From: Beroe forskalii
Lineage: Eukaryota; Ctenophora; Nuda; Beroida; Beroidae
DNA: 64,000 bases
Direction: 5' to 3'
Assembly: GCA_011033025.1 (NCBI GenBank)
Contig: WFMF01000185.1
Coordinates: 204,001-268,000, forward strand
The position numbers and the translations under genes were made by a program. How positions within the stretch are numbered: the first letter of the stretch is position 1; every line of letters starts with the position of its first letter. The notes under the pieces were generated by a model that ran no database searches, was not told where the DNA came from, and was given only the letters and a program-made list of their open reading frames with translations. Positions 7,564 to 64,000 of this stretch are shown one piece after another.

Positions 7564-7700
7564 CGAAAGATCCTCAGTGGCCGGGTAATTGCATTATGCA
7601 ATTACCGGCCACTGAGGATCTTTCGTGAGCCATTTCTCTGTAGATTAAAACCACCATATATGCAATTTGCATATATGGTGGTTTTAATCTACAGAGAAAT
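7564..7700. repeat. two back-to-back palindromes at the insertion junction
   Basis: The first (7564-7625) pairs CGAAAGATCCTCAGTGG with its complement around GCATTATGC. The second (7632-7665 and 7667-7700) is an exact 34-bp arm palindrome with one central base, around ATATATGCAATTTGC. The opposite arm of element A has a single linear copy of this sequence, so both palindromes arose here by local inverted duplication. Confidence 0.85.
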
Positions 7701-13386: not shown

Positions 13387-13766
13387 CACCCGGGTTCCTG
13401 TTACGAGGGAACTCGCGAGAAGGCTCGCAAGAAAACTTACGAGAAATGTTTTCGCCGCAGTTCCTGTACAAAAATTTTCGCGAGAAAAACCACCTTTTTT
13501 CCTCGCGAGAATACTCGCGAGAAATTTGAACACGTTTTTTTGCACATTTTCCTCGCGAGAATTCTCGCAAGGAAAATACGAAAAAGGAATAATTGATTTT
13601 GGATGGAATGTTACACATAATGGGAATATCGAATTATGAGCGTCAATTACGTCCAAGCAAAACAAAAAAACTCGTGTACAGGAACTACGTTGATGAAAAT
13701 CCTGATTTCTCGCAAGTTTTCTTGCAAGTTTTCTCGTGAGTTTTTCTCGTAACAGGAACCCGGGTG
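13387..13766. mobile_element. 380-bp TA-flanked fold-back with CTCGCGAG repeats
   Basis: The terminal inverted repeat CACCCGGGTTCCTGTTACGA is flanked by TA at 13385-13386 and 13767-13768. The other arm of element A lacks it (GCGTAAGAATCC intact). The interior is rich in TTCTCGCGAGAA-like palindromes. It is non-coding, with TA duplication as in Tc1/mariner or related groups. Confidence 0.8.
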
Positions 13767-13909
13767 TAACGCACACAATGACACATTCGCGATATTTCCC
13801 TAACTGCCGCTGAACTTGCCCGGGCATGTTATGCGTCGCGCGCGAAAAATAGGCGCAAGAATTGTTACCGTTACTGACAGTGTCAGGGGCATATTGTTCG
13901 TGTGGGACT

Positions 13910-14146
13910 AAGGTGCATGTAACGTTCGTCGGTCGATCGAATGGAATCGGTCGATCGATCAACTCCATTTGATCGACTCATGTGTTTTTAATGGAAAGTC
14001 TTTAAGCTAGTAGGGAAACAACTAAATATTGCTCATTTAAACACAATTCAAGTCAACAGGGACCATTAAAACACATCATTCGTTCAAATGGAGTTGATCG
14101 ATCGACCAACTCCATTCGATCGACCGACGAACATTACGGGCGCCTT
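13910..14146. mobile_element. 237-bp MITE with GATCGATCGA-rich inverted repeats
   Basis: The left end AAGGTGCATGTAACGTTCGT and right end mirror each other with two differences. The pairing continues through GTCGGTCGATCGAATGGA for about 70 bp. It is absent from the opposite arm of element A, so it is a later insertion. The interior has no frame. Confidence 0.75.
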
Positions 14147-14643
14147 ACTATTTGTGCGCGATGTTACCCTCGGCAAAATCTTCCATCATTTCAAACAAAT
14201 GTCAGATGTTTCGTTGTGAATTATATTTTGAATGTTTTAATAAATCAGAATTTGCACACTCGGGCTCAAGTAAAGAACATTTAAGAACATTTTGGGTCAA
14301 AAAAGTGTTACCACGCATGGTTTTCAAAAGTTCAAAGCACCTTTGCTCCTTTACTCTTTTACAGTAAAACTTCTCAAACGTTCAATGGTCGTTTGGTTTG
14401 CCGTAGACTACAGCCCCAGTGTGGACGATTTTCTTTACAAGAACTACCTATTTTCTGTAGATTAAAAAACCACCATATATGCAATTACCCGGCCACTGAG
14501 GATCTTTCGTGAGCCATTTCACCCCTTTCAACTTATTTTACAATCTGATGCTTCTGACCTATGATTTATGAAGATACATATCAATAACGAGCTAGGCTGT
14601 CGGGCCTGTTCTTCGTAGCTCAAGCTGCCACAGGACATCAATA

Positions 14644-15130
14644 AGTCAATACACGTCTTGTTCCTGATTAACGATTTTAAGTCGAGCTCAGTGTTCAACC
14701 CATGTTAATAGTGATAATATAATAATGCTGTTATTTCTCCGAACCTCGCTCTTGCATTGAATAGTCGTTGTATTTTGCCACAAGAACTTTCTGTTGGTTT
14801 TAAAATTCTTTGAAGATTTATACTCAAACTTTCAACATTTCCTTTCTAGAAGGGTAAATCTGCCGCAAAATTCGCTCTCCAGGTATTATACATATTATTG
14901 ATACACGTATGGATTGGGTCACGCTGAATTTGAGCAGAGCCGTGGACACTGGACATATCCATGAGGAATCTCAATTCCTACTTGCACACGCGAAGTGAAA
15001 TAGCCCATGTCAGTGTCAACTGTGCAACATGGTGGAGGATGGAAGTCACGCTACTGATACTGTACTACAGTTATACCATCCGAATTGGAAACTTTTGCCA
15101 TGGGCTTTCCTTGAATTCACAGTGTATCGG
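14644..15130. other. no gene or repeat recognised
   Basis: Unique-looking sequence between element A and the next block of loop repeats. No convincing exon or RNA was found. Confidence 0.4.
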
Positions 15131-15139
15131 GTTGATTCA

Positions 15140-16322
15140 CGTGGGTTGGGTGGTTTTGTGTGGGTTGGGTGGTTTCAGGTGGTTTCGGGTGGTTTCGGGT
15201 GGTTTCGGTTGGTTTCGGGGCTATATTGGGTGGTTTCGGGTGGGTTGGGTGGTTTCGGGTGGTTCCACCTTTTAGTATCAACGAAAATGTTGTAACAGAG
15301 GTGCTACACTTTTAGACGATAATCAGATTTTCCAACCTTATCCAGACCAATTGAAAAATTTATTGACAGGCAATAGTATCAACAGTCGAAACTGGGTGGT
15401 TTCGGGTGGGTTGGGTGGTTCTGGGAAGGTTGGGTGGTTCTGGGAAGGTTGGGTGGTTCCGGGAAGGTTGAGTGGTTTCAGGTGGGTTCGGTGGTTTCGG
15501 GTGGATTCGGCGGTTTTGGGTGGTTTCGGGTGGGTTGGGTGGTTTCGGGTGGTTTCGGGTGGGTTGGGTGGTTTCGGGTGGGTTGGGTGGTTTCGGGTGG
15601 TTTCAGGTGGTTTCGGGTGGTTTCGGGGCTATGTTGGGTGGTTTCGGGGGTGGTTTCGGGTGGGTTGGGTAGTTTCGGGTGGTTTCGGGTGGTTCCACCT
15701 TTTAGTATCAACGTGCAAAACGAACCAAAATTTTACTTAAATTTGAACTTCCCGAAACCACCCAGAATATGGATTTTGGATAGTTTCAGGTGGGTTGGGT
15801 CGTTTTGGGTCATTTTGGTGGTTAGAATTCCCCAATTTATGCAAAAATTTTGAAACGAGCCAAAATTTTACCTTTGTTGGAACTACTGAAACGACTAACC
15901 CACCGAACCAACCCAAAATATTAATTTTGGGTGGTTTCGGGTGGTTTCGGTTGGTTTCGGGTGGTTTGGGTGGTTACGGGTGGTTTCGGTGTTTTAAGTT
16001 CCCCAATTTATGCTAAATTCGAAACCATCCTGAACAGCCTGAATTCAGCTCCGAAACCAGCCCGAAACGACCCAAAATTTTACTTAAATGTGAGTGACCC
16101 GGAACCACCCGAAACCACCCAACCCACCGTTGGCTGGGTTGGGTGGGTTGGGTGGTTGGGTGGTTTCGGGTGGTTTCGGATGGTTTCGGGTGGTTTTGGG
16201 TGGTTTTCGGGTGGTTTCGGGTGGTTTCGGAGTTATGTTGGGTGGTTTCGGGGGTGGTTTCGGGTGGGTTGGGTGGTTTCGGGTGGTTTCGGGTGGTTTC
16301 GGGTGGTTCCACCTTTTAGTAT
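15140..16322. repeat. fragments of the element A loop minisatellite, inverted orientation
   Basis: GGGTGGTTTCGGG arrays at about 15140-15275, 15391-15712 and 15900-16322 with the same unique spacers as the loop of element A (TTTTACTTAAAT, CCCCAATTTATGC, CACCTTTTAGTAT), read as the reverse complement. A 115-bp foreign segment lies at 15276-15390. This is a second, partial copy of the element interior. Confidence 0.8.
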
Positions 16323-16329
16323 AAACGGA

Positions 16330-45659: not shown

Positions 45660-46560
45660 AAACAAAAAAACTTGCGTTTCAAAATAGTGAAGGAAGCGTC
45701 TGAGAGTTTCGAAGCCTATCTTAAACGATCCTACGTCAAATTTTACTCGAAAATCATAAAAGATACAGCTAAGATAGGAGATTGTCATAGGCTATGTAAG
45801 AAGTCTCCCTGCATCGATTTTCTTGCTGTTATGACGTCATCAAAATCGATAAAATCACGATTTTAGCGTAAAAACGTAATTTTGGACCACTTTGAAGCAC
45901 TGTATCTGAAAAGTTTTCTACCGCGTCATGATTTCCCGACTTATGTAGCATCTAGACCTCAAGATTTAGCCACAAAAGATTGGTGGCAAAATGAGGTCGT
46001 GGGAGGCCTCCAAAAATCGAGGATCCTTACTAGGCCATAATATAGCGACTTTCAGCATCTATATCTCAGCTCATCAACATTGCTCCATCTTTTCCAGGCG
46101 TATCAATGATCTTTCTCAATCAAATATCAAGGGTAAAAAGTTTCAAGTCGTCTCGATTTAAGAGAAAGGTGTGGCGGCCCCTCAAAAACGTCAATTTGAG
46201 CCGCGCAAAAAAGTCGAAAATTTGATCAAGTCCAATTTCAGGCCGAATTCCTAAAGTGCAGGGTTGTTGTGCTACATGATAGTGACTGAATCAACATTTT
46301 TATTGACTTGGTACTTGAATAGAACAAGAAATGGCCCATGGAAATGAAGTTCACGTGGACGTTTTGTAGAAATTAGGCAAATTTCAAATTTGAGCCTCAA
46401 GACCAAATTTTCGACTTGATTTGATTGAAATAAGTCACAATGTAATAGAAAAACATGACTCCAGGTCCATATGACAAATTTTTTCACGTGAGTTCACACG
46501 GACGTTTTGTAGAAATAAGGGAAATTACTATTTCAACGATTTTAACGAATGATTTCTATT
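45660..46560. repeat. dispersed repeat with TTCACGTGGACGTTTTGTAG units
   Basis: At 46330-46530 the segment GTTCACACGGACGTTTTG, TAGAAATTAGG and TTTTCGACTTGATT is present twice in degenerate form. It is related to 51230-51420 and 56700-56900 in the RTRAF inverted repeat arms. The first part (TTATGACGTCATCAAAATCG) is of unknown nature. No gene. Confidence 0.55.
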
Positions 46561-47390
46561 TCGAACGCCTAATAACGTATGTTTAGATCATATTAACCTC
46601 TTACAATTAAAAAACGGCGCCCCCGTGACTCTGTGAGGAGGTTGCTATGACGACCGCTTGCGGTTTTGTCTGTGATAAAATCGAAACGGACTTCGTAATA
46701 AGTTCGTTTCGGTTCAGTTCAACAATAAAATTAAAATAAGCTCTAAGGATTGGGGTTTTTCATCGGACTTAGGGAGCCTTGCGAGGGTCACTCGCACGGG
46801 TTGAGTATCAGGTGCACGGCTCTCTAAGTGAAAAGGAATTCGTGAAAAAGAAATAGTGGCCCGTTTTTCAACACTCATCGGTTGCAGTAGGTACGATTAC
46901 AAATTGATTCTCCTCCAGCTAACGGCTAAACTCAGCTATAGTTCGAGGAAATGTTTGAGGAGAAGACTCTCTTCTCCCCTTCTATAAATTATGCGTAGGC
47001 AGCTCTCACTGTGCAGATACTGAGAGAGTGAGAGTTGAGTTGGATGTGATAGCTCTCACATCGATATGTGGCTAAATCAAAGGCAAAGATTATGGGCGTT
47101 TCTAAGGATTTCTGCGAAATGATCGTTATTTGCTGAGTCAGAGTGATGATCCTGCGGTTATTTGAATTTATGAATGCGATGTCACCGTTGGATGTGAGCA
47201 CGTGATGGGCGAGCCTCCTGAACTCAGTATTTCGTACATATTATTATGGCTATCCCTAATTCGGAATTCCTATTATCATGACTAGTCGGTTCCCGTCCTA
47301 CGGACGGCGAATGATGGCAGCCGCATGAGCTAACGGCCACATGTCCCTTTTACAGTGATTTGACCGTGCAAGTTTGGAGGGGAAATTTGA
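46560..47390. other. no gene recognised
   Basis: No splice-bounded exon seen. The end (GTGATTTGACCGTGCAAGTTTG) resembles the sequence near 5535-5560, and both lead into GCGAAAAAAGG-type repeats. Confidence 0.4.
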
Positions 47391-47394
47391 AACT

Positions 47395-47850
47395 TTAATT
47401 TCTGCGAGAAAAAAGCTTCTCACGCCCCCAACGGTAACCCAATATTGCCGACAATATTCTCAAAACCTTTACTCATCATAAAGTCATAAGCAACTCCATA
47501 GCGAAGGAATTTTGAAAAAATTCGAAAATCTTTTTTTTTCGAAAAAAGGGCGTGGCCTTCCACGCCCCTTAGGGTGACCCGATAATTCGGACAAAATTCT
47601 CAAAACTTTAATTCATCATAAGCAACTTGATGGCGAAGGAATTTTGAAAAAATTCGAAAGTTTAATTTTTGCGAAAAAAAGGGCGTGGCCTCCCACGCTC
47701 CTCAGAGTGACCCAATAATTCGGACAAAATTCTCAAAATTTTTATTCATCATAAGCAACTAAATGGCAAAGGAATTTTGAAAAAATTCGAAAGTTTAATT
47801 TTTGCGAAAAAAAGGGCGTGGCCCCCCACGCCCCTCAGGGCGGCCGAAAA
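47395..47850. repeat. tandem repeat, about 115-bp unit with AAGGGCGTGGCC
   Basis: Four units with GCGAAGGAATTTTGAAAAAA, TTCGAAAGTTTAATTTTTGC, GGGCGTGGCC and CGGACAAAATTCTCAAAA. A relative of one unit is at 5600-5690. Confidence 0.85.
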
Positions 47851-47974
47851 AATGTCTCATTATTTTTCTGATTTATTGTAACTTTCTGACAACACGATTG
47901 AAAGATAATTTTGATGCTAACTTGAAAACGAATCGCCATAAATAAATAAATAAATAAATAAATATATATATATA

Positions 47975-48607
47975 GGATAGCCAAAAACAATTGAAAATTG
48001 TTTGGGCTTCGCAGCCACTCCAGTACCAAAAATTATACGATTAAAAATATTGATATGACTTTTAATCGCAGCCCGTCCGTGGCGGTGTGCTTTGGTAACT
48101 AAGAAATGAGCAGAACTTAACATTCAACATCTCACTGCCGTTTGAATCATACCTCTTTTAATTAACTAATGAAGCGTGAGTTAACGCGTAAAGCAAATAC
48201 CTATATTTTTAGCATTCTATTAAGTGTGATTTCACGTGAAAGGGCTTGTAAGCATGCTAAAATTAATCGTACGTTCATCCCTATTTGATGATTCAAATCG
48301 CCAATTTGCAGCGACTCAGATGGTCATAAACATTTAAAACATGAGTCCACTACTTTGATAATGTATGATTTTAAGCCGGTAGGAAACACGCCGTCACACT
48401 TATTATGGTCGGCAGGTTGGAGCGAAAGCATCACGATTGTGAAAATGTTCGACAAAAATGAAGTGGACCAATATATTTTTTCGTAACCAAAGCACACCGC
48501 CACGGACGAGCTGCGATTAAAAGTCATATCAATATTTTTAATCGTATAATTTTTGGTACTGGAGTGGCTGCGAAAACCAAACAATTTTCAATTGTTTTTG
48601 GCTATCC
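47975..48607. mobile_element. 633-bp MITE with about 140-bp inverted repeats
   Basis: GGATAGCCAAAAACAATTG at the left pairs with CAATTGTTTTTGGCTATCC at the right. Pairing continues for about 140 bp (GACTTTTAATCGCAGC, GTGGCGGTGTGCTTTGG). It is inserted at a TATA microsatellite, so the target duplication cannot be read. No coding capacity. Confidence 0.85.
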
Positions 48608-48639
48608 ATATCACTCTTTTTTGGCATAAAACTTACGCA

Positions 48640-49612
48640 ATCAGTTCAAGTTAATGATGCCGTTGGAATTAAGCCGCTATCATTCTTACTTTTTGAGTTA
48701 TAGGCGATAATTACCTTAATTGGCCAATTAACTAATTAAACGGCGGGCAACTGGTACTTAAATTAAACGTGAATCTCGTAATTTTGGCTTTAGTTACTGA
48801 TGCCGTTGGAATTAAGTGGCCATCACTCTTACTTTTTGAGTTATAGGCGATAATTACTTTAATTGGCCAATTAACTAATTGAGCGGCGGGCAACAGGTAC
48901 TTAAATTAAACGTGCATCTAGTAATTTTGGCTTGAGTGACTGATGCCGTTAGAATTAAGCCGCCATCATTCTTAATTTTTGAGTTATAGGCGATAATTAC
49001 TTTAATTGGCCAATTAACTAATTAAGCGGTGGGCAACCGGTACTTAGATCAAACGTACAAATCGTATTTTTGGCTTGAGTTAATGATGCTGTTAGAATTA
49101 AGTTGCTATCATTTTTACTTCTTGAGTTATAAGCGATAATTACTTTAATTGGCTAATTAACTAATTAAGCGGTTGGCAACCGGTACTTAAATAAAGCGTA
49201 CAAATCGTAATTTTGCCTTAAGTTAATGATGCCGTTAGAATTAAGTCGCTATCATTTTTAATTCTTGAGTTATAAGCGATAATTACTTTAATTGGCCAAT
49301 TAACTAATTAAGCGGTTGGCAACCGGTACTTAAATAAAACGTACAAATCGTAATTTTGGCTTAAGTTAATGATGCCGTTAGAATTAAGTCGCTATCATTT
49401 TTACTTCTTGAGTTATAAGCGATAATTACTTTAATTGGTCAATTAACTAATTAAGCGGTTAGCAACCGGTACTTAAATTAAACGTACAAATTGTAATTTT
49501 GGCTTAAGTTAATGATGCTGTTAGAATTAAGTCGCTATCATTTTTACTTTTGGAGTTATACGCGATAATTACTTTAATTGGCCAATTAACCAATTAAGGA
49601 CTTGTCATTTTA
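48640..49612. repeat. tandem repeat, about 145-bp unit, seven copies
   Basis: Each unit carries GATGCCGTTAGAATTAAG, CTTGAGTTATAAGCGATAA, TTACTTTAATTGGCCAATTA and GCAACCGGTACTTAAA. Central copies are very similar; edge copies are more diverged, as in arrays evolving by unequal exchange. Confidence 0.9.
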
Positions 49613-50085
49613 AAATTTGATATGGCCTAATGCACGCACACCATTCTTAAGTTTCATATGCCGTTTAGATTTAGATTCTATCTTTTATGGTTCTCGAGAA
49701 CACTCAAACACTATTTTTATCATCGAGTCGGGTCGGGTCGGGTCGTAGTCCATGTTCTAATTTTTGATAAAATAGCGTTTTTTTGGTAATTTATTGTGAG
49801 AAAACTACGCGGTCGATTTTCATGAAATTTTCAGGGTTTGTTATTCTTGTTATGGACTACGGTTGTACAAATTTTCATGACCAACAGATTAAATTAACAT
49901 GTTAAAAACGCGACTCGAAAAATCGCGATTTTCGCGATTTACTATATTTTTATATAATAGGCGCTGGCAAACGTATTTTTCAATACTTGAAAAACGGTTC
50001 CGCTACGACTCTTAGCACTTCATGCTGGTACTACCAGCTTGTTTGGAGTGTCTGGCCAGCAGTCCCGGCCCTTCTGGCCTGTTCG
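49613..50085. other. no gene recognised
   Basis: AT-rich. A short GGGTC repeat is near 49730 and a palindromic TCGCGATTTTCGCGA near 49920. Confidence 0.4.
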
Positions 50086-50086
50086 G

Positions 50087-50282
50087 CTGACCTTGGCCCT
50101 TCGGGCCGAGGGCATTGGCCCTTCGGGCAGATGCTCTCGGCCAGCATCCCCGGCCCCTTCGGGCGGGGGTAGATTTCTGGATGCCCTCGGCCCTTCGGGC
50201 CGAGGGCATCTGCCCTTCGGGCAGATGCCCTCGGGTTTTTTTTCCGTGGCTGCGGGCGCTTGCCAGCGCCCTGATATATATA
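50087..50282. repeat. cluster of CCCTTCGGGC stem-loops
   Basis: At least five hairpins of the GGCCCTTCGGGCC / GCCCTTCGGGC type with GAGGGCAT linkers, ending in GCGCTTGCCAGCGCCCTG. Frames read through on both strands are artefacts of the GC-rich repeat. Related hairpins are at 4640-4775 and 38973. Confidence 0.85.
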
Positions 50283-50811
50283 TATATTAACAACACGCAT
50301 TATATATAGTAAGATAATGCTATGATCATCTTGTAATTGCATAGCTAGTACTTTGAGCCAGAGGTTTAATATTCGTATATGTCATAATAATACAGATACC
50401 CGGATCGGAAGTCTCTGTATTATTCCCCGGGTCCCCTTTGTCAGTAACACAATAGCAAACCCGGATTCCTAACTCCAAAGACTACTTGACTCCAAGGATC
50501 AATATCCATGGTAAATTTGCAGGATGCCACATGATGCTAATTCGTAGAAGCTAATTTCTAAAGATATTTAAAGGCATATCCATATGCTCCAAATGCTGGA
50601 GCAGACTATGATTATGCATAATCCTTCTATCCTATAACCCGGGAGATACACAGTGCACACTGAGACCGCTGCGAATTGGTGACTTGGTGGAGCTTCCGCA
50701 GCTGCTCACTGCAGCCTGCTGGTCAACTGCAAGTGCATAGCAAATTACAGTTACACATTACAACTTTAAAATTTTAAAATTATTATACGTCTTATAACCG
50801 ATACTCGTAAG

Positions 50812-51159
50812 GGGCCATCCAGAAATGAGCTCATCGAAAATCGGCCTTTTTTGAACATACATACATACTACCTCATCAGTACCTCATCATTTGGGAAAGA
50901 TACATACATACCCCAACCTCATCTCATTATTTCATGATTTATCATCCATGTTACGTCACTCTTTCAATATGAAAGGCTGAAGTGACGTCACTACTTTGAT
51001 TTAAGTTAGATCATCTAACTTTAGGTACTGTACGCGCGTCATCGAAACAAATTCATTCAAAATTGAAATTGGTCCCGTGCTACATTCAGTGTACCGGTAT
51101 GGTCCAATTTTACAATGAGTGGTTGATGTCAAAATTTCGCCTCTACACCCCAAGTGATG
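50812..51159. repeat. GGGGCCATCC start and CATACATACTACCTCATCA repeats
   Basis: It starts with GGGGCCATCCAGAAATGAGC (compare the MITE end at 662). ATACATACATACTACCTCATC and GATGAGCTCATC recur up to and into the left arm of the RTRAF inverted repeat. Possibly the outer part of the same element. Boundaries unclear. Confidence 0.5.
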
Positions 51160-51597
51160 AGCTCATCATTTTGCAAACCTACATACATACTACCTCATCA
51201 CTACCTCATCACTAGATCTGGTTGCTACATTTCAGCACGTGAGTTCACGCGGACCTTTTGTAGAAATTAGGGGATTTGAAGAAATTGATATTCACACGAG
51301 ATTTTCGACTTGATTATGTTGAAATGAGTTCAAATACAACCTATGCACGTGAAATTAGATCTGGTTGCTATATTTTAGCACGTGAGTTCACGTGAACGAT
51401 TTGTAGAAATTAAGAAATAATCAATTCTAGTAATTCCGTTAGAATAACGTAGTTTGGGACTTTGTCTGGGTAAGTTGCGGGTTAGACTTGCGTGTGGGCT
51501 AGTAACGTGGGTTCTGGACACGTGAGGGCAAGTTATGTGGGTCTAAACTGCCTTTGGGCAAGTAACATAGGTTCAAACATACATCTGTCAAGATATC

Positions 51598-51735
51598 ACC
51601 ACCAAAACCGTTGGACGGTTGGTCAGTAACCCCCGCGGGGTTTGGATGTGACAACGGAACCTGAAAAGAGACAAAATGGGCTGATCACATCCAAACCAGC
51701 GGGGTTACTAGACCAACCGTCCAACAGTTTTAATG
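51598..51735. mobile_element. small MITE, CCGTTGGACGGTTGG ends (left-arm copy)
   Basis: AAAACCGTTGGACGGTTGG pairs with CCAACCGTCCAACAGTTTT, and internally TTTGGATGTGA pairs with TCACATCCAAA. Its counterpart in the other arm is 56381-56522. Confidence 0.75.
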
Positions 51736-52163
51736 TAAAAGAATAAATATTTTTAATGATTTATTGACTGTTCTCTAGGTTTGTGCTTTAATAAAACATG
51801 AATAATGGTTGCTGTTGATTGTTAAATAATTGATTTATTATGCGATGATGTATTTTGAACTTACAAAGTACAAATGGGAGAAATTAACTGAATGTATTTG
51901 CGTGTCAAGGGTTTTGTATTTCATATGAGTTTCTCTAATTGAAGCTTTGTCGTTGAATAATGTTTGAAGTTATGACCTTTGTACATTTATTATTATAATT
52001 TCATTAACATAATAAAGCATTTCAAGAGTTTAAGTTAGTGCCTCGTTTAGTTATCAGTAAATGAATGTAAGCAATATTTTGAATATTTCTTGGAAAACGG
52101 AAAAGCTTGAACTTGTCAAAGTATCTTTTAAGAGAGTATCCTTCCCAATCGTAGTATCGTAGG

Positions 52164-52282
52164 ATGTTATCAATACAGCGGAAGCTGAGAACGTTACAAT
52201 ACCACAGTCCTGACCACATCTCCCTAACGAGTGATGAGGATGTGAGGAACATTGTACGGTGGCTAGAGAACCAGAAAATCAG
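52164..52282 (+). CDS. RTRAF: second RTRAF exon 1, plus strand, in the left arm
   Basis: ATG at 52164 gives MLSIQRKLRTLQYHS, PDHISLTSDEDVRN, IVRWLENQKIR and a GTTAGT donor. The protein is identical to the gene-linked exon 1 at 55953-55835; the only base difference is a CTG/TTG leucine codon. It points into the spacer, toward the antisense side of the RTRAF body, so in the present orientation it has no partner exons. It may be silent, give antisense transcripts, or become exon 1 after inversion of the spacer. Confidence 0.8.
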
Positions 52283-52499
52283 GTTAGTGATTAACAATTA
52301 CTGATGATTCAATATACTAGACACTAGTCTCCAATTCAGTTACAATGTTAACATTTCTGCTCCTTCCATATAAAGCAATGAAAGGCTTTAGTTTATTGAG
52401 GTCCTACCATATCCTTTGTCGTAATTACTGAACAGTGAAATATCTAGCTAATAGTAATTACAAAAGTGTACAGCATCAGTACCTAATTACCACAATTTC

Positions 52500-52670
52500 C
52501 TATAGAAATATCGACGCAAACCTCAGCTGTTGCTCGACAACATTCGCTGAATTCCACTGAAGGAGGTTGTTGACGACAATGAATGTAGCGAGGAAGGTTG
52601 GAGCAAAGAGGAGCTGATCTGCGCATAACTTCTTGGCTGCGACCACCATTGTCATCTTACTACCAAATAT
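52500..52670 (-). CDS. MPV17/PXMP2-family protein, exon 3
   Basis: The CTCAG acceptor at 52671 is followed in phase 0 by IFGSKMTMVVAAKKLCADQ, LLFAPTFLATFIVVNNLLQ and WNSANVVEQQLR. This matches the third part of MPV17/PXMP2 proteins (K-DQL-FAP-F-F---LL-G). The exon could end at 52522 with a weak GTTTGC donor. If read through, it stops at 52500 after FASIFL. The family's conserved last third (the WP--N---WP--Q--NF--VP block) was not found. The inner edge of the left inverted-repeat arm begins only about 80 bp away, so the gene seems to be cut there. Confidence 0.8.
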   Translation of the reverse strand: MFGSKMTMVVAAKKLCADQLLFAPTFLATFIVVNNLLQWNSANVVEQQLRFASIFL

Positions 52671-52837
52671 CTGAGGTCATGGGAGTGTTAAGGGAAGGTA
52701 GCTACTGCAAGGACACTGTCAGTCTGGCACTAGCTTTGCGACATAACAAATAAACAAAACATATGTGATAAGCAGTGAGTACTGAGTAGACACCATTACT
52801 TTCTAGATTTCTGAGTGGTAACTGGTAAACTGGTAAC

Positions 52838-52948
52838 CTTGTCAAGGCAGAGATACCACGTTCTGATGGTAGGTGCGATCAGGAACCCACCAATCGCAGT
52901 CATTCTAGCACTCCTCACCCAATCATGCTTCCTCTTTCTCTCTATCAC
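52838..52948 (-). CDS. MPV17/PXMP2-family protein, exon 2
   Basis: An exact 37-codon exon, acceptor CCCAG and donor GTTACC: VIERKRKHDWVRSARMTAI, GGFLIAPTIRTWYLCLDK. This matches the R-ARM--FGF---GP--H-WY--LD block that defines the family. It is in frame with both neighbours (phase 0). Confidence 0.87.
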
Positions 52949-53145
52949 CTGGGAATTACATGATTTATTACAACTGGCAATGCAGGGGTTAGTAACGGGT
53001 ATAAATTGCAAACCGTCACACCGTCATATTGAGGTCCAACTGTAATATCGCATTGAAAATGCAGCAGAAGGCGGATGTTTAATTGTCATGTCACTCCACA
53101 CTGGGGCAGGGTACTTTATTCGGAGATCATTCTAAGAGCCTTACC

Positions 53146-53268
53146 AGGGGCGTGTCGAACTCCTACGTCCGCGGCTTTTTCATGCGCGGCTCACGGCCTG
53201 TGAGCCTGTCATTTAACAGCCAGTAAGCCGCACATTAAAAAGCCGCGCACGTTAGAGTTCTACACCGT
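53146..53268. mobile_element. small MITE in MPV17-like intron 1
   Basis: GTGTCGAACTCCTACGT at one end and ACGTTAGAGTTCTACACC at the other, with GCGGCTTTTTCATGCGCGGC pairing to GCCGCACATTAAAAAGCCGC. Imperfect 55-bp arms; non-coding. Confidence 0.7.
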
Positions 53269-53278
53269 CAATACACAC

Positions 53279-53380
53279 CTGTTGAGCGATGGCATCCCCA
53301 GTGAATAGCATTCCAGCTGTGCTCCACATTCCAGTGAGGAGGGGACGAGTAGCGAGCTCCTTCAGGTACCAGCTCCACAT
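53279..53380 (-). CDS. MPV17/PXMP2-family protein, exon 1
   Basis: ATG at 53380 opens MWSWYLKELATRPLLTGMW and STAGMLFTGDAIAQQ with a GTGTGT donor, 34 codons, phase 0. The W-Y---L---P-LT----G-L---GD-I-QQ pattern is the family N-terminus. Members are four-helix integral membrane proteins of the mitochondrial inner membrane or peroxisome with proposed channel roles. The start lies 578 bp downstream of the RTRAF stop on the same strand; the gap holds E-boxes and X-boxes. Intron 1 contains a 120-bp MITE. The exact subfamily (MPV17, MPV17L2 or PXMP2) is not settled. Confidence 0.85.
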
Positions 53381-53382
53381 GT

Positions 53383-53464
53383 CACGTGATCTTCACAAGC
53401 ATGTAGCACGTGACTGTAACGCGTTGCTAGGCGACACGTGACAAGTAATGCGTTGCTAGACAAC
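53383..53464 (-). promoter_or_regulatory. putative MPV17-like promoter: three E-boxes and two RFX X-boxes
   Basis: CACGTG at 53383-53388, 53407-53412 and 53435-53440. GTTGCTAGGCGAC at 53423-53435 and GTTGCTAGACAAC at 53452-53464 both fit the RFX X-box pattern RYYNYY-N-RRNRAC. All lie within 85 bp upstream of the start codon. Regulation by RFX or bHLH factors is inference from motif fit only. Confidence 0.5.
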
Positions 53465-53957
53465 ACGAGTCTAGGGGCTTTCTTCAAACACTGCACTTTA
53501 ATCGACACATTGTGCTGCTCAGATTTGATTTATGTTAGGAAAAGATATAAGGGAAAATGCTATTATATGATGAAATACCATTGAACCATTCGGCGACCGG
53601 CGTGTGATACTCAGAAGGCTTCAGTGTATTGCAATAGAATGATTCTTCGGTTAACACAATGTGAGGATAAAATGGAAGCAGTTCAAAAACATGCATTTCA
53701 AATTACTGATGAAACAGTATGAATAAAATGGGCTAAAAACAAAATGTAATGAAGATATGGAACAAATATTAGAAAAACCAACAAGACTTTTCAACGTAAA
53801 TGATATCAACTTATTAAATAAACTTTTCGTAGAAGTTGAACATATCGAAATTAATTAATATATTAACATACCCCTAAACCGAAACAAAGTGTTGACATTA
53901 AAATACAGATCTAAAGTATAACTTTAACTTAAACTCCATTAACTGGAACACTGCAGA

Positions 53958-54131
53958 CTACCGTCCTACTTGTCCCAGTGACGTGTCTGTCTTTGGGTCA
54001 GCTGTTTGAGACTGCGCAGCAACGATAGCCTCGTTTATCTGAGTTTGCAGCAACCGTAACTCTTCGATGTGGAGCAGTCGCAGAGCTTTCCCTGCCTCGT
54101 TCAAACTAGGATCACCCAGATCAAAACCTAT
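53958..54131 (-). CDS. RTRAF: RTRAF exon 5 (last)
   Basis: After a CTCCCAG acceptor: IGFDLGDPSLNEAGKALRL, LHIEELRLLQTQINEAIVAA, QSQTADPKTDTSLGQVGR and TAG at 53960-53958. It matches the helical C-terminus of animal RTRAF (GFDTGD--LNEAA-ILRLLHIEELRELQTKINEAIVAVQ, ending DPKTD--LGKVGR). This region takes part in complex assembly. Phase 0 start, 57 residues. Confidence 0.95.
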   Translation of the reverse strand: MGFDLGDPSLNEAGKALRLLHIEELRLLQTQINEAIVAAQSQTADPKTDTSLGQVGR

Positions 54132-54355
54132 CTGGGAGATAGGAAATCTTAGAATTCTTAGAGAAACTGGAGAACCTAAATTGGGAGATAAGACATCTTA
54201 GAATATGTAGGGAAACTATAAACCATTTGCGAAAGAAAGAGCACAACAGCATTAAGGGCTTTCTCATCGAAATCGCAAGTAAATCTCAATCTCATTTTAT
54301 AGTTCGTAGATCAGCTTACAGCACTTCTGTACTGCTGGTTTGTATATAGAAATAC

Positions 54356-54448
54356 CTCCTGCGCTGTCAGTTGCATTTCATCCCCATCTCTCTTCACAGC
54401 ACTGCTACCCAGACGCTTGTCTATCAGGACTCTACACGACTTTAACAC
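54356..54448 (-). CDS. RTRAF: RTRAF exon 4
   Basis: A 31-codon exon, acceptor CTGCAG and donor GTATTT: VLKSCRVLIDKRLGSSAVK, RDGDEMQLTAQE. Corresponds to LKAIRILVQERLT-DAV of vertebrate RTRAF. Phase 0 at both ends. Confidence 0.9.
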
Positions 54449-54753
54449 CTGCAGGGATATTGATGACAAGTTTAAAGTCAAATGATTAAAATGTGGACTA
54501 GAAAATGAAACCATCAAAATTGACAGTAAGGTGAAATGGTGGCTTGCAAAGGAAAGGATGAAGTCAATTATCGACACTCAGTTTACACGATAAAAAGTGC
54601 ATCATAATCTATTAATTAAAATCGATTGAATTGCGCGCGCAGATTAATCATGTGATACGCGCTAGTAACCCAAGAAATACTTTAATGCGCGCTCCGTTCG
54701 AAAGAAGACCCTTTTACTTTCGCAAGTAGATGTTCCACAGGAGTTAGAATTAC

Positions 54754-54886
54754 CTGTAAGTAATCATGATGTGGCGGTATCCTCAGATAATCTCTGATTT
54801 TGTTGACTCCGTTCTTGAACTGGACACTGTTCACATCAAGGGGCGGACACTCGGTGGCATCTAGTGGCTTGCAAGGGACAGTTTCA
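54754..54886 (-). CDS. RTRAF: RTRAF exon 3
   Basis: Acceptor TTTGAG, donor GTAATT. Reads SETVPCKPLDATECPPLDV, NSVQFKNGVNKIRDYLRIP, PHHDYLQ. Matches the PLINLDVNNPDFKAGV--LA-LLQI--HDDYL block of the family. The first codon is split with exon 2 (AG+T). Confidence 0.92.
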
Positions 54887-55066
54887 CTCAAATTACAGTG
54901 GGCAAATACAGTGAGTTCATTAGTGGGTCAACTGATGATATTAATCAGGTTTTGTTGCGTAACCCAATTTATCTTATTTTAGAACCTACAGTTGTACGCA
55001 GTCTGCTGAAGTACTTAACAAGATTTCTGTGTAATCTTCCAGTCTAACATAGCCTGCCACATAGCC

Positions 55067-55069
55067 CCC

Positions 55070-55111
<42 letters not shown>
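55067..55111. repeat. CA/GT microsatellite beside the RTRAF exon 2 donor
   Basis: A C-run followed by about twenty CA units on the plus strand. In the transcript this is a UG repeat starting within 10 bases of the exon 2 donor. Confidence 0.95.
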
Positions 55112-55114
<3 letters not shown>

Positions 55115-55119
55115 ACTAC

Positions 55120-55299
55120 CTCATCGTCTCCTTCTGGTCAGTATACTCGAGTCTGATAGCGTAGTTAAGGAGCCAATCAAGGGCTGCGTTCTGGAACTTC
55201 TCAAAGCTGTAAGGACATCTCATCTCCTTGAGGTAAGAGGCGACAGCACTTCGCCATGAGTCTCCATCAAACTCACTTCTGTCACTGATCTGATAGTAC
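55120..55299 (-). CDS. RTRAF: RTRAF exon 2
   Basis: Acceptor CATCAG (55301-55300), donor GAG/GTAGTG (55119). Reads YYQISDRSEFDGDSWRSAV, ASYLKEMRCPYSFEKFQNA, ALDWLLNYAIRLEYTDQKE and TM. Matches HYKIEDRGNLRNI-SSDWPKFFEKYLRDVNCPF---QEAIDWLLGLAVRLEYGD in vertebrates. Five further copies of its acceptor and first 45-48 bases lie upstream as 59-bp repeats; only the proximal acceptor gives the full exon. A long GT repeat begins in the intron just after the donor. Confidence 0.93.
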
Positions 55300-55610
55300 C
55301 TGATGAGGGGACGCATGAGTCTCCATCAAACTCACCCCTGTCACTGATCTGATAGTACCTGATGAGGGGATGCAAGAGTCTCCATCAAACTCACCCCTCT
55401 CACTGATCTGATAGTACCTGATGAGGGGACGCATGAGTCTCCATCAAACTCACCCCTGTCACTGATCTGATAGTACCTGATGAGGGGATGCATGAGTCTC
55501 CATCAAACTCACCCCTGTCACTGATCTGATAGTACCTGATGAGGGGATGCAAGAGTCTCCATCAAACTCACCCCTCTCACTGATCTGATAGTACCTGATG
55601 AGGGGATGCA
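55300..55610 (-). repeat. 59-bp tandem repeat of the RTRAF exon 2 acceptor and exon start
   Basis: Acceptor/exon starts recur exactly every 59 bp at 55299, 55358, 55417, 55476, 55535 and 55594. Each unit has CCCCTCATCAG/GTACTATC, then GATCAGTGACAGGGGTGAG, TTTGATGGAGACTC, then the next CATCAG. 59 is not a multiple of three, so using a distal acceptor would break the frame. Each unit also has GGTGAGT, a good donor-like word. Confidence 0.95.
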
Positions 55611-55834
55611 GGAGGTAGGGTATGGTAATTTTCTGGGGGGGCTCAATAGTGTTTCTCTCAGCGTATCGGGCTCTCCCGTCTGAGATGCGAATTACGACCT
55701 TAAAGCCAAGGATATGGTAGGACCTCAATAAACTAAAGCCTTTCATTGCTTTATATGGAAGGAGCAGAAATGTTAACATTGTAACTGAATTGGAGACTAG
55801 TATATGGAATCATCAGTAATTGTTAATCACTAAC

Positions 55835-55953
55835 CTGATTTTCTGGTTCTCTAGCCACCGTACAATGTTCCTCACATCCTCATCACTCGTTAGGGAGATG
55901 TGGTCAGGACTGTGGTATTGTAACGTTCTCAACTTCCGCTGTATTGATAACAT
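55835..55953 (-). CDS. RTRAF: RTRAF exon 1
   Basis: ATG at 55953: MLSIQRKLRTLQYHS, PDHISLTSDEDVRNIVRW, LENQKIR, donor GTTAGT. It aligns with MFRRKLTALDYHNP...W-LEDQKIRHY at the start of animal RTRAF (also called C14orf166, CGI-99 or hCLE). RTRAF is a subunit of the RTCB tRNA-ligase complex with DDX1 and FAM98B and shuttles RNA between nucleus and cytoplasm. The five exons sum to 699 bases, 232 residues, close to the 244 of human. This exon sits in the right arm of the inverted repeat. Confidence 0.93.
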
Positions 55954-56380
55954 CCTACGATTGGGAAGGATACTCTCTTAAAAGATACTTTGACAAGTTC
56001 GAGCTTTTCTGTTTTCCAAGAAATATTCAAAATATTACTTACATTCATTTACTGATAACTAAACGAGGCACTAACTTAAACTCTTGAAATGCTTTATTAT
56101 TGTTAATGAAGAGTATAATAATAAATATACATAGATCATAACTTCAAAACATTATTCAACGACAAAACTTCAATTAGAGATACTCATATGAAATACAAAA
56201 CCCTTGACACGCAAATACATTCAGTTAATTTCTCCCATTTGTACTTTTGTAAAGTTCAAAATACATCATCGCATAATAAATCAATTATTTTAACAATCAA
56301 CAGCATCCATTATTCATGTTTTATTAAAGCACAAACCTAGAAAACAGTCAATAAATCATTAAAAAATATTTATTCTTTTA

Positions 56381-56522
56381 CCACCAAAACCGTTGGACGG
56401 TTGGTCTAGTAACCCCCCGCTGGTTTGGATGTGATCAGCCCATTTTGTCTCTTTTCAGGTTCCGTTGTCACATCCAAACCCGCGTGGGGTTACTAGACCA
56501 ACCGTCCAACGGTTTTGTTGGT
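56381..56522. mobile_element. small MITE, CCGTTGGACGGTTGG ends (right-arm copy)
   Basis: Same element as at 51598-51735, with longer, better matching terminal repeats (AACCGTTGGACGGTTGGTC). It was present before the arm was duplicated. Confidence 0.75.
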
Positions 56523-57215
56523 GATATCTTGACAGATGTATGTAGTTTGAACCTATGTTACTTGCCCAAAGGCAGTTTGGACCCACGTAACTTGCCCTCA
56601 CGTAGTCCGAACCCACGTTACTAGCCCACACGCAAGTCTAACCCACGCAACTTACCCAGACAAAGTCCCAAACTACGTTATTCTAACTTGGAATTACTAG
56701 AATTGATATATTTCTTAATTTCTACAAATCGTCCACGTGAACTCACGTGCTAAAATATAGCAACCAGATCTAATTTCACGTGCATAAGTTGTATTTGAAC
56801 TCATTTCAACATAATCAAGTCGAAAATCTCGTGTGAATATCAATTTCTTCAAATCCCCTAATTTCTACAAAAGGTCCGCGTGAACTCACGTGCTGAAATG
56901 TAGCAACCAGATCTAGTGATGAGGTAGTGATGAGGTAGTATGTATGTAGGTTTGCAAAATGATGAGCTCATCACTTAAAACATGATATTCTGTATCATGT
57001 TTTAATATCTGATCATCTTTGAATTTGTCTTGTTGTTATGATTTTGTAATTATTAAATTTAATGCTTTATATGTTTTTCAGTAATTTTGCCCTTTTTACC
57101 TTTTTTGCCCCTTTGAACTTTTGTTTCGAGACCATTCATTTCGCCTCTTATTTACCTTTGAAATTTTGTTAATTTATTCTACTGAGGATATTATTTGTAT
57201 TTGGTAACTTATTAA

Positions 57216-57742
57216 CCCATTATTGCCTAGTGGTTGCATATGCAACCACCAAGTTCAATCGCCCATAAAATTTGCAAATGTTGAGATAGGAAAATGGTTC
57301 ATATTGCGTTTTGTAGGAAATTGGTTAAATTTTCATTTGAGACAGAAATTTCCAGGCTACAGTTTGATATGAAGCTGGTATAACCTGCCAAAGTTGGGTT
57401 AAAAATTTGAAAAATGACCTACTCTAGGGCTCTTCACCTCAAAACTTGAAATTTGCCCCAAATGATTTGGAAATTTTTGTTCCCGATTCAGAATTGGCAG
57501 CTCTACAGCATGAAAGTAATTTCAAGTTAAAATGGAGATTAGTGTGAACATGAGAATGTTTGAAACTATGCTGGTTGCATATGCAACCGCTAGGTGGGGC
57601 CTAGTGGTTGCATATGAAACCGGTTGCGTATGCAACCACCAGGCTACAAGATCTGGCCTAGTGGTTGCATATGCAACCACTGAATTGTGAAATTTTCATA
57701 AATGGTTGCATATGCGACCACTAGGCCCACATTATTTGTTAT
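57216..57742. mobile_element. piggyBac-like MITE with TGGTTGCATATGCAACCA repeats
   Basis: TTAA at 57212-57215 followed by CCCATTATTGCCTAGTGG; the other side ends GACCACTAGGCCCACATTAT near TTAA at 57743-57746 and is degenerate. The palindrome GGTTGCATATGCAACC or its half occurs about six times, mostly as CTAGTGGTTGCATATG. TTAA plus CCC is the piggyBac signature. No transposase. Confidence 0.6.
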
Positions 57743-57744
57743 TT

Positions 57745-58243
57745 AAGCTACATGCAGTCACCATTTTGATATCAACTAAAAATTTAAGTAGAGTTTTAGT
57801 GGTGCATCATGTTTAAAAACATTATTTTTGAGTAAAATGCCGCTAAATTTTGCATCTGGAACTTTGTCATAATCAAATAATTTCATCTGATGTAAGTCAT
57901 TTCATTCTAATATACGTTGGCCATTGCTGCATGAAAACATCAATCTATTGGCCTAACGATTTTATAAGAATAAGCAATGATTTTTGTTCCAGAAGCTTAG
58001 ATTATATTTATAGTTTAGACTCAAGAAAAGATAACTTAACAACACAATTCCTCTAATTGTGTTAGTCAAAATGAGCAATTGTAACCTTTGGTAATAATCA
58101 ATATGATTTTGGATGAAATTGATGGTTCTCAATTACTCTTAATAATTTACAATCAGCAAAACAAAAATCCTTGCTGACCAGTTTATCCTTCCTTTGGCCC
58201 TATGCAATATTCATTCAAGGTTCTGTCCATATACCAAAAATGA
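57745..58243. other. no gene recognised
   Basis: AT-rich spacer between two piggyBac-like elements. Confidence 0.4.
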
Positions 58244-58247
58244 TTAA

Positions 58248-59573
58248 CCCTTAAAGTGCTGGGTGGGCAAAATCTGCCCACAAAAATTTTCAAACATAAG
58301 CAACTCAAAATGTATCAGGTCTTATTGGGCTAGCTGTTTAGTAGCTTCCTAAATCAATCAGGAGAACATATCCCCGACGTTGGAAGCGCAAATTAGTATG
58401 TAAAAGTCGAGATATAAAATTTCGATTTTGTGGGTAAAAATTACCCACCCATATCGCTGATATGGGTGGGCTAAAATTGCCCACACGTGGGCAATTTTTG
58501 CCCAACAATTGGCTGTGGCCAATTTAAGTCCAAGTTGTGGGTCATAAAAAACCCACAAAACACATTGGTCAAAATATACCCACACTATCATATCTTATGC
58601 ATTTTGGTCGGATACCTATTCATTATTTCAATGCAATTCCTTATGTGATTTCTATTCAGTAAGCTGCATTATCATTTTTATTGGTGAGCATAAATTTTTG
58701 ACAATTTTATCATGATTCTGGTCGGGTTAAAATCTGAATTTGTAGAATCTGACTGATATAGTTGCAATAACTAGAGTTTGAAATTTCATTTCATCTCAGA
58801 CATCATGACGTATAAGTATGTACAATGGTAGGATCAAAATTTGGAAAGAAATGTTCGAGAAAATCCTCACAAATATAGGATATGTGCTTTCAAATCATTT
58901 TTGACCATATTATAATCATTTCCCGTGATTGATACATCGTTTATTTAGACAGTTATACTTATTCGCTACTTCCATTCAGAAAATTGTGATAATAAGCGCT
59001 TCTATGAATATATTCTTACTGGCAATGATTTTGTGGGCATATTGTGCCCACAGCTGAGATTTGTGGCAAATATTGCCCAAATATGTGGACGAAACCAACC
59101 CACAGGATCGTGGGCATTAAAAGTCCACACTTTGCTTGGCGTTTAATGTGGACTTCGATCAACAATTTAGCATTCTTCAAGGAGTATTATGTTCAACAAT
59201 AAGCTTCAAATATCAATGTAAACATTTCATTGATATAAGTACAGCTACCTCGATTACAGAACAACTTTTGAATTTGCGTGGACCAAAAAAGCCCACGATT
59301 TCACTGTGGGTAAATACAACCCACAAGCCAATTTTGGCCTGAAAGAATACAAGCTGCTTATAGTAAAATTTCAAAGTCGATTAAAGGTGATGAAAAATGA
59401 CATTTGCGGATATTTTTGATGAGAAAGTGATCAACAAAGGTTATATATTACGCATAGAATGCCAAAACTCAAAATTTCATATTGTATAGAGGGGAAAATA
59501 GGTCTTAAAATATGTGGGCAAATTCTGCCCACCCAGCACTTTACGTAAGTATTTAAGCCCAGCACTTTAAGTG
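58248..59573. mobile_element. piggyBac-like element dotted with GTGGGCA...TGCCCAC pairs (1326 bp)
   Basis: TTAA at 58244-58247 and 59574-59577. Ends CCCTTAAAGTGCTGGG and CCCAGCACTTTAAGTG. The right end has a nested second CCCAGCACTTTA. Along the element are at least eight inverted word pairs such as GGGCAAAATCTGCCC, GGGTAAAAATTACCC, GGGCTAAAATTGCCC, GGGCATATTGTGCCC and GGGTAAATACAACCC. These spacers of 5-7 bases differ while the GTGGG arms are kept. The interior has no transposase frame. Confidence 0.8.
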
Positions 59574-60483
59574 TTAAGAATATGAAGTTATTCAGAGCCA
59601 TTTGAGGCCCAGTGAATCATTGGTTTTCGGACTTCTTGAAAACCTATATTATGAAGATATAAGTAAGGCCCCTTTTCAACAAGGTGGCCGCAACGGTACG
59701 TAAATAAAACGTCTAGTACACAATATAATACGATTCTTAAGAAAATGAACGCATTCTTAGAGAATAAACGCAAATTCAATTAGGCGCAGCGTTTTTATTT
59801 TCTATCCTTGCGTCCATTACTAGTATAAATGGACGCCTCACTCAAACAATAAACGCATTTCTTTGCGACTCTTATTGAAATGAACGCACAGACACGAATT
59901 TGAACGCAGTAGGTATGAGGAGAGGCTTGAACAGCAACAAACGCAATTCAACTCTCTGCAAACGCATTGGTGAGTGACTCTTATTGAAACAAACGCACAG
60001 ACAAGAATCCGAACGCAATAGGTATGAGGAGGGGCCTGAACAAAAACAAACGCAATTCAAATCTCTGTAAACGCATTGGTCAGTGACTCTTATTGAAATT
60101 TGAAACGAACGCACACACAAAAATTTAAACGCAGTAAGTATGGGGCAGAGCTTTTACTGAAACAAACGCGACCTAACACCTCGTAAACGCATCTGTGTGC
60201 GACTCTTATCAAAACAAACGCACAGACAGGAATTTGAACGCAGTAGGTATTAGGCGTGGCTCTTTACGATTATAAACGCAACTTAACACTAGATGAACAC
60301 ATTTCTTTGCCTGTTTATTAAAATGAACGCATTGGTACAAATTTGGACGCAGTATTCATAAAAAGATACACACAATGTAACTGCTTAACTGCATTACTTA
60401 TTATGGAATAAATGGAACTAGAATGTAAGAGTAATTAGATTACACACACTGCGTGCCATAGTAGATGCTACTGTTTAGAAGGG

Positions 60484-61160
60484 GTGGGTTAAATGAGTGG
60501 AAAGGGGTGGCTTATGAGTGAAGAGGGGTGGGTTATGAGTGGAAAGGGGTGGCTTATGAGTGAAGAGGGGTGGGTTATGAGTGGGATATGAGTGGAAAGG
60601 GGTGGGTTATAAGTGAAAGGGGTGGCTTATGAGTGAAGAGGGGTGGGTTATGAGTGGAAAGGGATGGGTTATGAGTGATGAGGGGTGGGTTATGAATGGA
60701 AAGGGGTGGGATATGAGTGGAAAGGGGTGGGTTATGAGTGGAAAGGGGTGGGTTATGAGTGGAAAGGGGTGACTTATGAGTGAAGAGGGGTGGGTTATGA
60801 GTGGAAAAGGATGGGTTAGGAGTGATGAGGGGTGGGTTATGAATGGAAAGGGGTGGGATATGAGTGGAAAGGGGTGGGTTATGAGTTGATTGGGGTGGGT
60901 TATGAGTGAAGAGGGGTGGGTTGTGATTGGAAAGGGGTGGCTTATGAGTGAAGAGGGGTGGGTTATGAGTGGAAAGGGGTGGGTTATGAATGGAAAGGGG
61001 TGGGATATGAGTGGAAAGGGGTGAGTTATGAGTTGATTGGGGTGGGTTATGAGTGGAAAGAGGTGGGTTATGAGTGGAAATGGGTGGCTTTTGCGTGGAA
61101 AGGGGTGGGTTATGAGTGGAAAGGGGTGGGTTATGAGTGAAGAGGGGTGGCTTATGAGTG
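60484..61160. repeat. 21-bp minisatellite GGGTGGGTTATGAGTGGAAA
   Basis: More than thirty units in the left part of the 4.3-kb element. A decayed reverse-complement relative (CATAACCCA, CCAATCAACTCA) lies at about 62820-63090 in the other arm. Minus-strand frames rich in Thr-His-Asn-Pro-Pro are repeat artefacts. Confidence 0.92.
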
Positions 61161-61919
61161 GAAAGGAATTTGAGGGCAATAGGTATGAGGAGGGGCTTGA
61201 ACAAAAATAAACGCAATTTAAATCTCTGTAAACGCATTGGTCAGTGACTCTTATAGAAATTTGAAACGAACGCACAGACAAGAATTTAAACGCAGTAAGT
61301 ATGGGGCAGAGCTTTTACAGAAACAAACGCGACCTAACACCTCGTAAACGCATCTGTGTGCGACTCTTATCAAAACAAACGCACAGACAGGAATTTGAAC
61401 GCAGTAGGTATTAGGCGTGGCTCTTTACGATTATAAACGCAACTTAACACTAGATGAACGCATTTCTTTGCCTGTTTATTAAAATGAACGCATTGGCACA
61501 AATTTGGACGCAGTATTCATAAAAAGATACACACAATGTAACTGCTTAACTACATAACTTATTATGGAATAAATGGAACTAGAATGTAAGAGTTATTAAG
61601 TTATTAGATTTCACACACTGCGTGCCATAGTAAATGTTTACACCGTGCCTTGTATTAGTTGAAACTTTGAGTAAGAGACATCAGAAGAATTTCAGAATTG
61701 CCCAAAAGCTCAAAGATAAGAAAATAAAGGTGTATGCTTCCATCAAGAGTGCACTCCTGCCTATAATTTGTCTGTGGACTACGAAAACACGATTGGGTGG
61801 ATAGCAAAGGTATTGGTATTGGCCATTGCCATTGGGTGAGTATTCCGGTGGGGATTTAGATTTTAGGTTATGTTATAAAAAAGTAGTCTTACGACCTTAT
61901 TGTCTGCTCCAATAACACT

Positions 61920-62345
61920 GTACGCTCAGAGTTTACTGACTAGATTGCTGTGCACTCTGAGTGGACTAGATTGCAGTGCACTCTGAGCGAACTAGATTGA
62001 AGTGCAGTGTGCACTCTGAGTGGACTAGATTGCAGTGCACTCTGAGCGAACTAGATTGCAGTGCACTCTGAGCGAACTAGATTGCAGTGCACTCTGAGCG
62101 GACTAGATTGATTTGATCTCTGAGCGAACTAGATTGCAGTGCACTCTGAGCGGACTAGATTGCTGTGCACTCTGAGCAGACTAGATTGCAGTGCACTCTG
62201 AGCAGACTAGATTGCAGTGCACTCTGAGCAGACTAGATTGCAGTGCACTCTGAGCAGACTAGATTGCAGTGCACTCTGAGCAGACTAGATTGCAGTGTAC
62301 TCTGAGCAGACTAGATGCAGTGCACTCTGAGCAGACTAGATTGCA
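61920..62345. repeat. 26-bp minisatellite GTGCACTCTGAGCAGACTAG
   Basis: About sixteen units (GTGCACTCTGAGC, GGACTAGATTGCA) near the middle of the 4.3-kb element. Variants with GCGAAC, GCGGAC and GCAGAC are clustered, showing local expansion of subtypes. Confidence 0.92.
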
Positions 62346-64000
62346 GTGCACTTCTCTTTTCCAGACTAGTTTTGCTGATACTCGACCGGAATAGATTGCA
62401 ATGTACTCCAATTGCGGACTGGATCTCCAGGTTCTCCATGTCTAGGCTCATCTTAATTCCCACAGAAATAGAAATAGTACAATGTCAGTCAGATTACAGA
62501 AATAATGTGTCAGACTGTCCTTCTACTGAAAAAATCCCCGAAATGATTCAAAAGATAGAAATCCACATAAGATTGTATGCAACAAGAGGTCCTAAATGTA
62601 AACTTTCAAGAAAACTATCTTATTGAAAAGGTAAAAAGGATGGAAAATTGATTGGAAATGAGGTTAAGGAACTGAGATACAAGACCTCCCAATAAAATTA
62701 AGAATAAAGTTCCTAATCCTAACCAATACATCAACTCATAAAAATTTTTCCAAAAATCACAGACAGGAATTTTCCATTCATGTAAGTTCACCCCCTAATC
62801 ATTTATGTATTCACTACCCCATCACTCATGTTGACCCACCCCTCTTCACCCAAACCGGATCCCATCAGTCCATAACCCATATATTCACTGGTTAATCCCC
62901 CCCTTTCCAATCTCTTTTCCCCACCTTTTTTTCTGATTTCCCAGATCCACCCATCCATTAATTATTGTACTCTGCACTCATAACCCAACCCTACCCCAAT
63001 CAACTCAAAATTCCCAATCAACTCATTACCCCATCCTTTCCAAACATATCCCTTACCTTTGCATTCTTTACTCCAAACTCTTACTCTGGTCCATCCTTTC
63101 TACTCACATCAATTTAGTCCACTCATAGTACACAGGCACTCATTGCACTGCAATCCTTCTAAACAGAGGCATCTAATCTGGCACTCAAGTGTAATTAAGT
63201 ACCCCATTCTAGTTCCATTTATTCCATAATAAGTAATGCAGTTAATATGTTACATTGTGTGTATCTTTTATACCGTCCAAATTTGTGTAATATGTTCATT
63301 TTAATAAACAGGCAAAGAAAAATAGTTCATCCTTCGTGTTGTTCATTTAAAATCGTAAACAGGCAAAGAAATACCTACTGCGTTCAAATCTGGTCAATGC
63401 CCTTTGTTTAAATCGTCACATAGATGCCTTTACTACTGCGTTCAAATTCCTGTCTGTGCGTTTGTTTTGTTTCAGTAAAATGCGTTTTACAGTGTTGCCC
63501 CGTTTGTTTCAGTAAAAGTTTAAATTCCGTTTAAATTCTTGTGCGTTTCAAATTTCAATAAGAGTCACTGACCAATGCGTTTACAGAGATTTAAATTGCG
63601 TTTATTTTTGTTCAAGCCCCTCCTCATACCTATTGCGTTCAAATTCTTGTCTGTGCGTTTGTTTTAATAGAATCACTCACCAATGCGTTTGTTGCTGTTC
63701 AAGCCTCTCCTCATACCTACTGCGTTCAAATTCGTGTCTGTGCGTTCATTTCAATAAGAGTCGCATAGAAATGCGTTTATTGTTTGAGTGAGGCGTCCAT
63801 TTATACTAGTAATGGACGCAAGGATAGAAAATAAAAACACTGCGCCTAATTGAATTTGCGTTTATTCTCTAAGAATGCGTTCATTTTCTTAAGAATCGTA
63901 TTATATTGTGTACTAGACGTTTTATTTACGTACCGTTGCGGCCACCTTGTTGAAAAGGGGCCTTAAGTAGGTATAATGATCAATGGGTGCAATTGCGTTC

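Follow-up and report, generated by a model that had tools for sequence, protein, structure and literature searches.

The first exon of RTRAF is present in both arms of an inverted repeat flanking the gene in the ctenophore Beroe forskalii

RTRAF in this contig of Beroe forskalii lies at an inverted repeat that carries the first exon of the gene in each arm, which raises the question of whether the block between the arms can flip and the gene be rebuilt in either orientation, or whether the second exon 1 is a remnant of a past rearrangement. If the block flips naturally, a conserved gene would tolerate an inversion hotspot whose breakpoints bear its own 5′ end; if it does not, the locus would present an orphan first exon left by inverted duplication, a clear case able to mislead gene prediction. 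Self-comparison of the window (the whole analyzed stretch of 64,000 nucleotides) yields an alignment of the two arms that is 1286 columns long and 95.4% identical (bit score 1998), with mismatches in 21 columns and gaps in 38; a spacer of 3291 bases separates the arms. The match between the arms is far above chance level, and a global alignment of them is continuous end to end. Past a short gap lies an unscored 9-base match, GTCGTAATT, which suggests that homology of the arms reaches to about 52426/55690. The initial annotation had placed the feature at 51160-56974, which is correct within ten bases. The locus, with positions counted from the first letter of the window, comprises the following.

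51152-52416, plus strand: left arm, a copy running from the region upstream of RTRAF through exon 1 into intron 1
51598-51740, no strand: short fold-back element within the left arm (ends approximate), which served for polarization
52164-52282, plus strand: coding part of the left RTRAF exon 1, followed by its GT donor (left arm)
52521-53380, minus strand: MPV17-like gene fragment of three exon-like pieces, within the spacer, so named from a consensus of the family
53958-54131, minus strand: RTRAF exon 5, including the stop codon (spacer)
54356-54448, minus strand: RTRAF exon 4 (spacer)
54754-54886, minus strand: RTRAF exon 3 (spacer)
55120-55299, minus strand: RTRAF exon 2 (spacer)
55255-55614, no strand: 59-bp tandem array of 6.1 copies across the exon 2 acceptor
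55708-56976, minus strand: right arm, from the region upstream of RTRAF through exon 1 into intron 1, in one piece with exons 2 to 5
55835-55953, minus strand: RTRAF exon 1, coding part (right arm)
56380-56522, no strand: right-arm counterpart of the fold-back element

The gene predicted in the right arm and spacer is RTRAF, of what we judge to be the animal type. Its five minus-strand exons have GT/AG intron ends and join in phase to give 232 residues, which match the Pfam RLL profile (PF10036) over its full length (profile positions 2-253 of 253; E 4.3e-66) and the RTRAF chain 9i8v_E (E 1.1e-51). Each exon 1 copy has 119 coding bases with a start codon and is followed by the donor GTTAGTG; the copies differ at a single base, a synonymous change, and encode an identical peptide. 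The initial annotation had described a first exon of this kind in both arms, together with exons 2 to 5 in the spacer, and the alignment and the in-phase splicing that completes the protein agree with it on both points. Exon 2, which it put next to the right arm, is indeed on the spacer side of that arm, at a distance of ∼390 to 410 bases from the inner end. On the plus strand, tblastn with the RTRAF protein finds no RTRAF exon besides left exon 1, the other plus-strand hits there having E values of at least 1.

Inversion of the block was simulated with a crossover outside exon 1 (51300/56828) and with one within intron 1 (52350/55774), and both times the plus strand carries exons 1 to 5 consecutively and encodes the same protein. 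The RTRAF architecture would thus survive inversion, and the proposal that a flip restores the gene on the other strand holds on paper. The flip logic stands, but neither the occurrence of inversion nor a protective role of the layout is supported: the left-arm changes are one-sided, and a flip of the spacer would invert the apparently truncated second gene fragment too.

The global aligner places 46 events between the arms, 31 substitutions (17 transitions and 14 transversions) and 15 gap events. Thirteen of the gap events, each of 1 to 3 bases, fall in the left arm. The right arm has two, 8 and 7 bases long, which look like units tandemly duplicated in the left arm; a sign test gives P 0.0002 for the short gaps (13:0) and P 0.007 for all of them (13:2). 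Corresponding gap counts are 10:9, 16:13, 3:10, and 4:2 for four other inverted pairs and 2:5, 5:6, 1:0, and 2:2 for four direct pairs; we note that one of these inverted pairs also leans (3:10), which counts against the reading of the left arm as a decaying copy. Differences were polarized using repeats inside the arms (the two fold-back element halves, 30-bp units, and a 57-bp duplication), with alignments read by eye. This yields 12 polarized differences (15 of the 46 events), 11 of them derived in the left arm and one, at 51602, in the right (P 0.006); four of the 11 left-derived changes fall within ten bases, and when these are counted as two the ratio becomes 9:1 (P 0.02). The left-derived call at 51544 is supported by two of three sister units, and the polarized set excludes two ambiguous fold-back differences (5 events, in C/G runs) and 26 events that have no comparison repeat. 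Relaxed selection alone is insufficient for this asymmetry, because the polarizing repeats are presumably unconstrained in the right arm. The one-sidedness points to a defunct copy, or to a left arm that was badly assembled, more than to arms that keep trading roles.

The differences are also unevenly distributed, with 24 of the 31 substitutions and 12 of the 13 left-arm gaps within the 590 bases of 51421-52010 and nearly clean stretches on either side (36 events inside versus 10 in the 675 bases outside; Fisher P 1.4e-5). With neighboring substitutions merged, the counts are 28 versus 10 (P 0.0008). This clustering weighs against a simply decaying copy; a stretch of poor consensus sequence could produce it, as could gene conversion of the arm ends, and the near-identity of the outer 268 bases of the arms, which are 99% alike, could be a trace of conversion.

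Purifying selection on left exon 1 was considered separately, and the unchanged peptide was rejected as evidence for it, near-identity being expected without selection. One substitution or none in 119 bases has a P of 0.21 at the rate of the arms (inner rate, 0.57), and the absence of any amino acid change has a P of 0.11 (inner rate, 0.33), with three quarters of sites counted as nonsynonymous.

The explanation that we favor as probable is an ordinary inverted segmental duplication, which may be what remains of a staggered-break inversion, with a nonfunctional relic on the left and RTRAF expressed from the right arm. Such a duplication would have copied ∼1.3 kb, from upstream of RTRAF through exon 1 into intron 1, to the other side of a block made up of RTRAF exons 2 to 5 and the MPV17-like fragment. 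A small inversion with staggered breaks may have been the source; such breaks would leave each end of the block with an inverted copy, and inverted duplicates are present on both sides here. The right arm would drive expression of RTRAF, and the left copy would be a relic without function, gathering small deletions and substitutions.

A damaged left arm could also be an artefact of assembly, in which allelic RTRAF 5′ ends, or a single copy of low quality, ended up inverted at a false join, or error-rich reads filled part of the left arm. The clustering of 12 of the 13 left-arm deletions, several within homopolymers, is consistent with such an error, as is the rate outside the patch, where 10 events in 675 bases amount to ∼1.5%, in our judgment a plausible allelic range. 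We nevertheless regard an artefact as doubtful: it requires two independent joins to different sequence, the window has no N, a 3.3-kb spacer carrying its own genes rules out a simple missed-adaptor palindrome, and the window holds further inverted repeats. Capture of both genes by a transposable element with long terminal inverted repeats is highly improbable. The outer ends of the arms are sharp, and we read the ends of at least one further inverted repeat of the window as element-like, but the arms hold a host exon 1 and its upstream region, comparison of the flanks for duplications of 2 to 12 bases finds no target-site duplication at the outer arm ends, and a Pfam search of the six spacer frames returns RLL in two of them but neither a transposase nor any further family (E ≤0.1). 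This candidate was rejected on the latter two grounds.

That the arms recombine occasionally, so that the spacer flips, RTRAF is rebuilt either way, and its neighbor reverses direction, we consider unlikely, although several observations fit. Flips simulated on both sides of exon 1 keep the same protein, inverted repeats flank the block, the 99% likeness of the outer 268 bases is as expected from partial gene conversion, and among human inversions, most of those that arise through highly identical inverted repeats were found to recur (PMC6748972). Arms that swap roles would be expected to share changes, however, whereas those seen are one-sided (13:2 for gaps and 11:1 for polarized differences), although the arm ends are nearly clean, and the arms, at 95.4% overall, fall short of highly identical. 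A more elaborate version would give each arm a usable promoter and exon 1 and make RTRAF a self-preserving, invertible gene, rebuilt both ways. A flip would then alter nothing but the direction of the block, MPV17-like neighbor included, and its surroundings, and in each state two promoters would face each other; we think this version quite unlikely.

The RTRAF locus has parallels among known rearrangements. In the recurrent FLNA-EMD inversion of mammals a gene block is flanked by inverted repeats, as is likewise the case at the RTRAF locus. Close precedents are two human inversions that exchange first exons: HsInv0030 swaps the first exon and promoter between CTRB1 and CTRB2, with expression differences possible (PMC6748972), and HsInv0241, which sits between duplicated segments, swaps the first exon of AQP12A and AQP12B and apparently alters only the relative position of the genes (PMC3961182). 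They resemble the RTRAF locus in the exchange of first exons by inversion, but they involve two genes and an inversion shown in people, whereas here there are one gene, one orphan exon, and a simulated flip. Staggered-break inversions in Drosophila subobscura leave an inverted duplicate on either side of the inverted block, and some of these duplicates hold a truncated gene copy that gains point and length mutations (PMC5080602). The likeness lies in these duplicates; the D. subobscura inversions, in contrast, are large and were shown by comparing inverted with noninverted chromosomes, whereas the RTRAF block spans a few kilobases and is seen in one arrangement. The RTRAF locus resembles these kinds of rearrangement already in print, any inversion of its own being hypothetical, and an ordinary origin is most likely. 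No paper joining RTRAF with an inverted repeat was found in the open-licence PMC literature, and no relative was confirmed among viral contigs (7 pattern matches) or genome contigs (32), in collections of viral and bacterial or archaeal sequences from which little was expected.

The second gene fragment in the spacer resembles proteins of the MPV17 family. Its three pieces match the N-terminal part in tblastn with consensus strings for the family (E 1.2e-6, 1.0e-5, and 0.011), and the name comes from these strings because Pfam gives the fragment no family, either joined or in the spacer frames. The C-terminal part was not found by tblastn with the family consensus over the whole window, nor by Pfam in the three minus-strand frames of 46500-52520 and the three plus-strand frames of 56900-60400. 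The left arm repeats ∼1 kb of upstream sequence, and the promoter was thus possibly copied; facing promoters, with convergent transcription and double-stranded RNA over RTRAF as suggested in the initial annotation, are a possibility on this layout. Transcription of the MPV17-like fragment could terminate ahead of left exon 1 at a minus-strand AATAAA (52397-52392), and three further ones lie beyond that exon, so that the case for antisense RNA over left exon 1 is weakened, although such RNA is still possible.

The 59-bp array spans the start of exon 2 and part of the intron before it. On the minus strand, CAG followed directly by GTACTATCAGATCAGTGA occurs six times at a 59-base spacing, repeating the exon 2 acceptor sequence. 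Since 59 is not a multiple of three, use of the upstream acceptors would shift the frame, except for the acceptor three units away.

Several smaller repeats lie at or near the arms. The palindrome TGATGAGCTCATCA is found near the outer ends of both, and a short palindrome (AAAACATGATA...TATCATGTTTT) lies at 56977-57005, immediately outside the right arm. The left flank contains, at 50814-50889 and oriented like the left arm, a short copy of the arm outer end (ATGAGCTCATC ... ACATACATACTACCTCATCA). Inverted repeats are not rare in the window, since the RTRAF arm pair, although the longest, is one of four with arms of >800 bases; self-comparison gives these others.

10656-13387: inverted repeat with arms of >800 bases
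8194-10623: inverted repeat with arms of >800 bases
59664-63965: inverted repeat with arms of >800 bases

The first two belong to a nest of inverted repeats at 7667-16327 (10656-13387, 8194-10623, 7667-14484, and 11724-16327), and TACAGTCAAA, which we take to resemble a mariner-type end, is common to both flanks just beyond the ends of 8194-10623. The repeat at 59664-63965 has 82% identical arms beginning TAAGGCCCCTTTTCAACAAGG, with tandem arrays inside, and by its appearance looks like a nonautonomous element.
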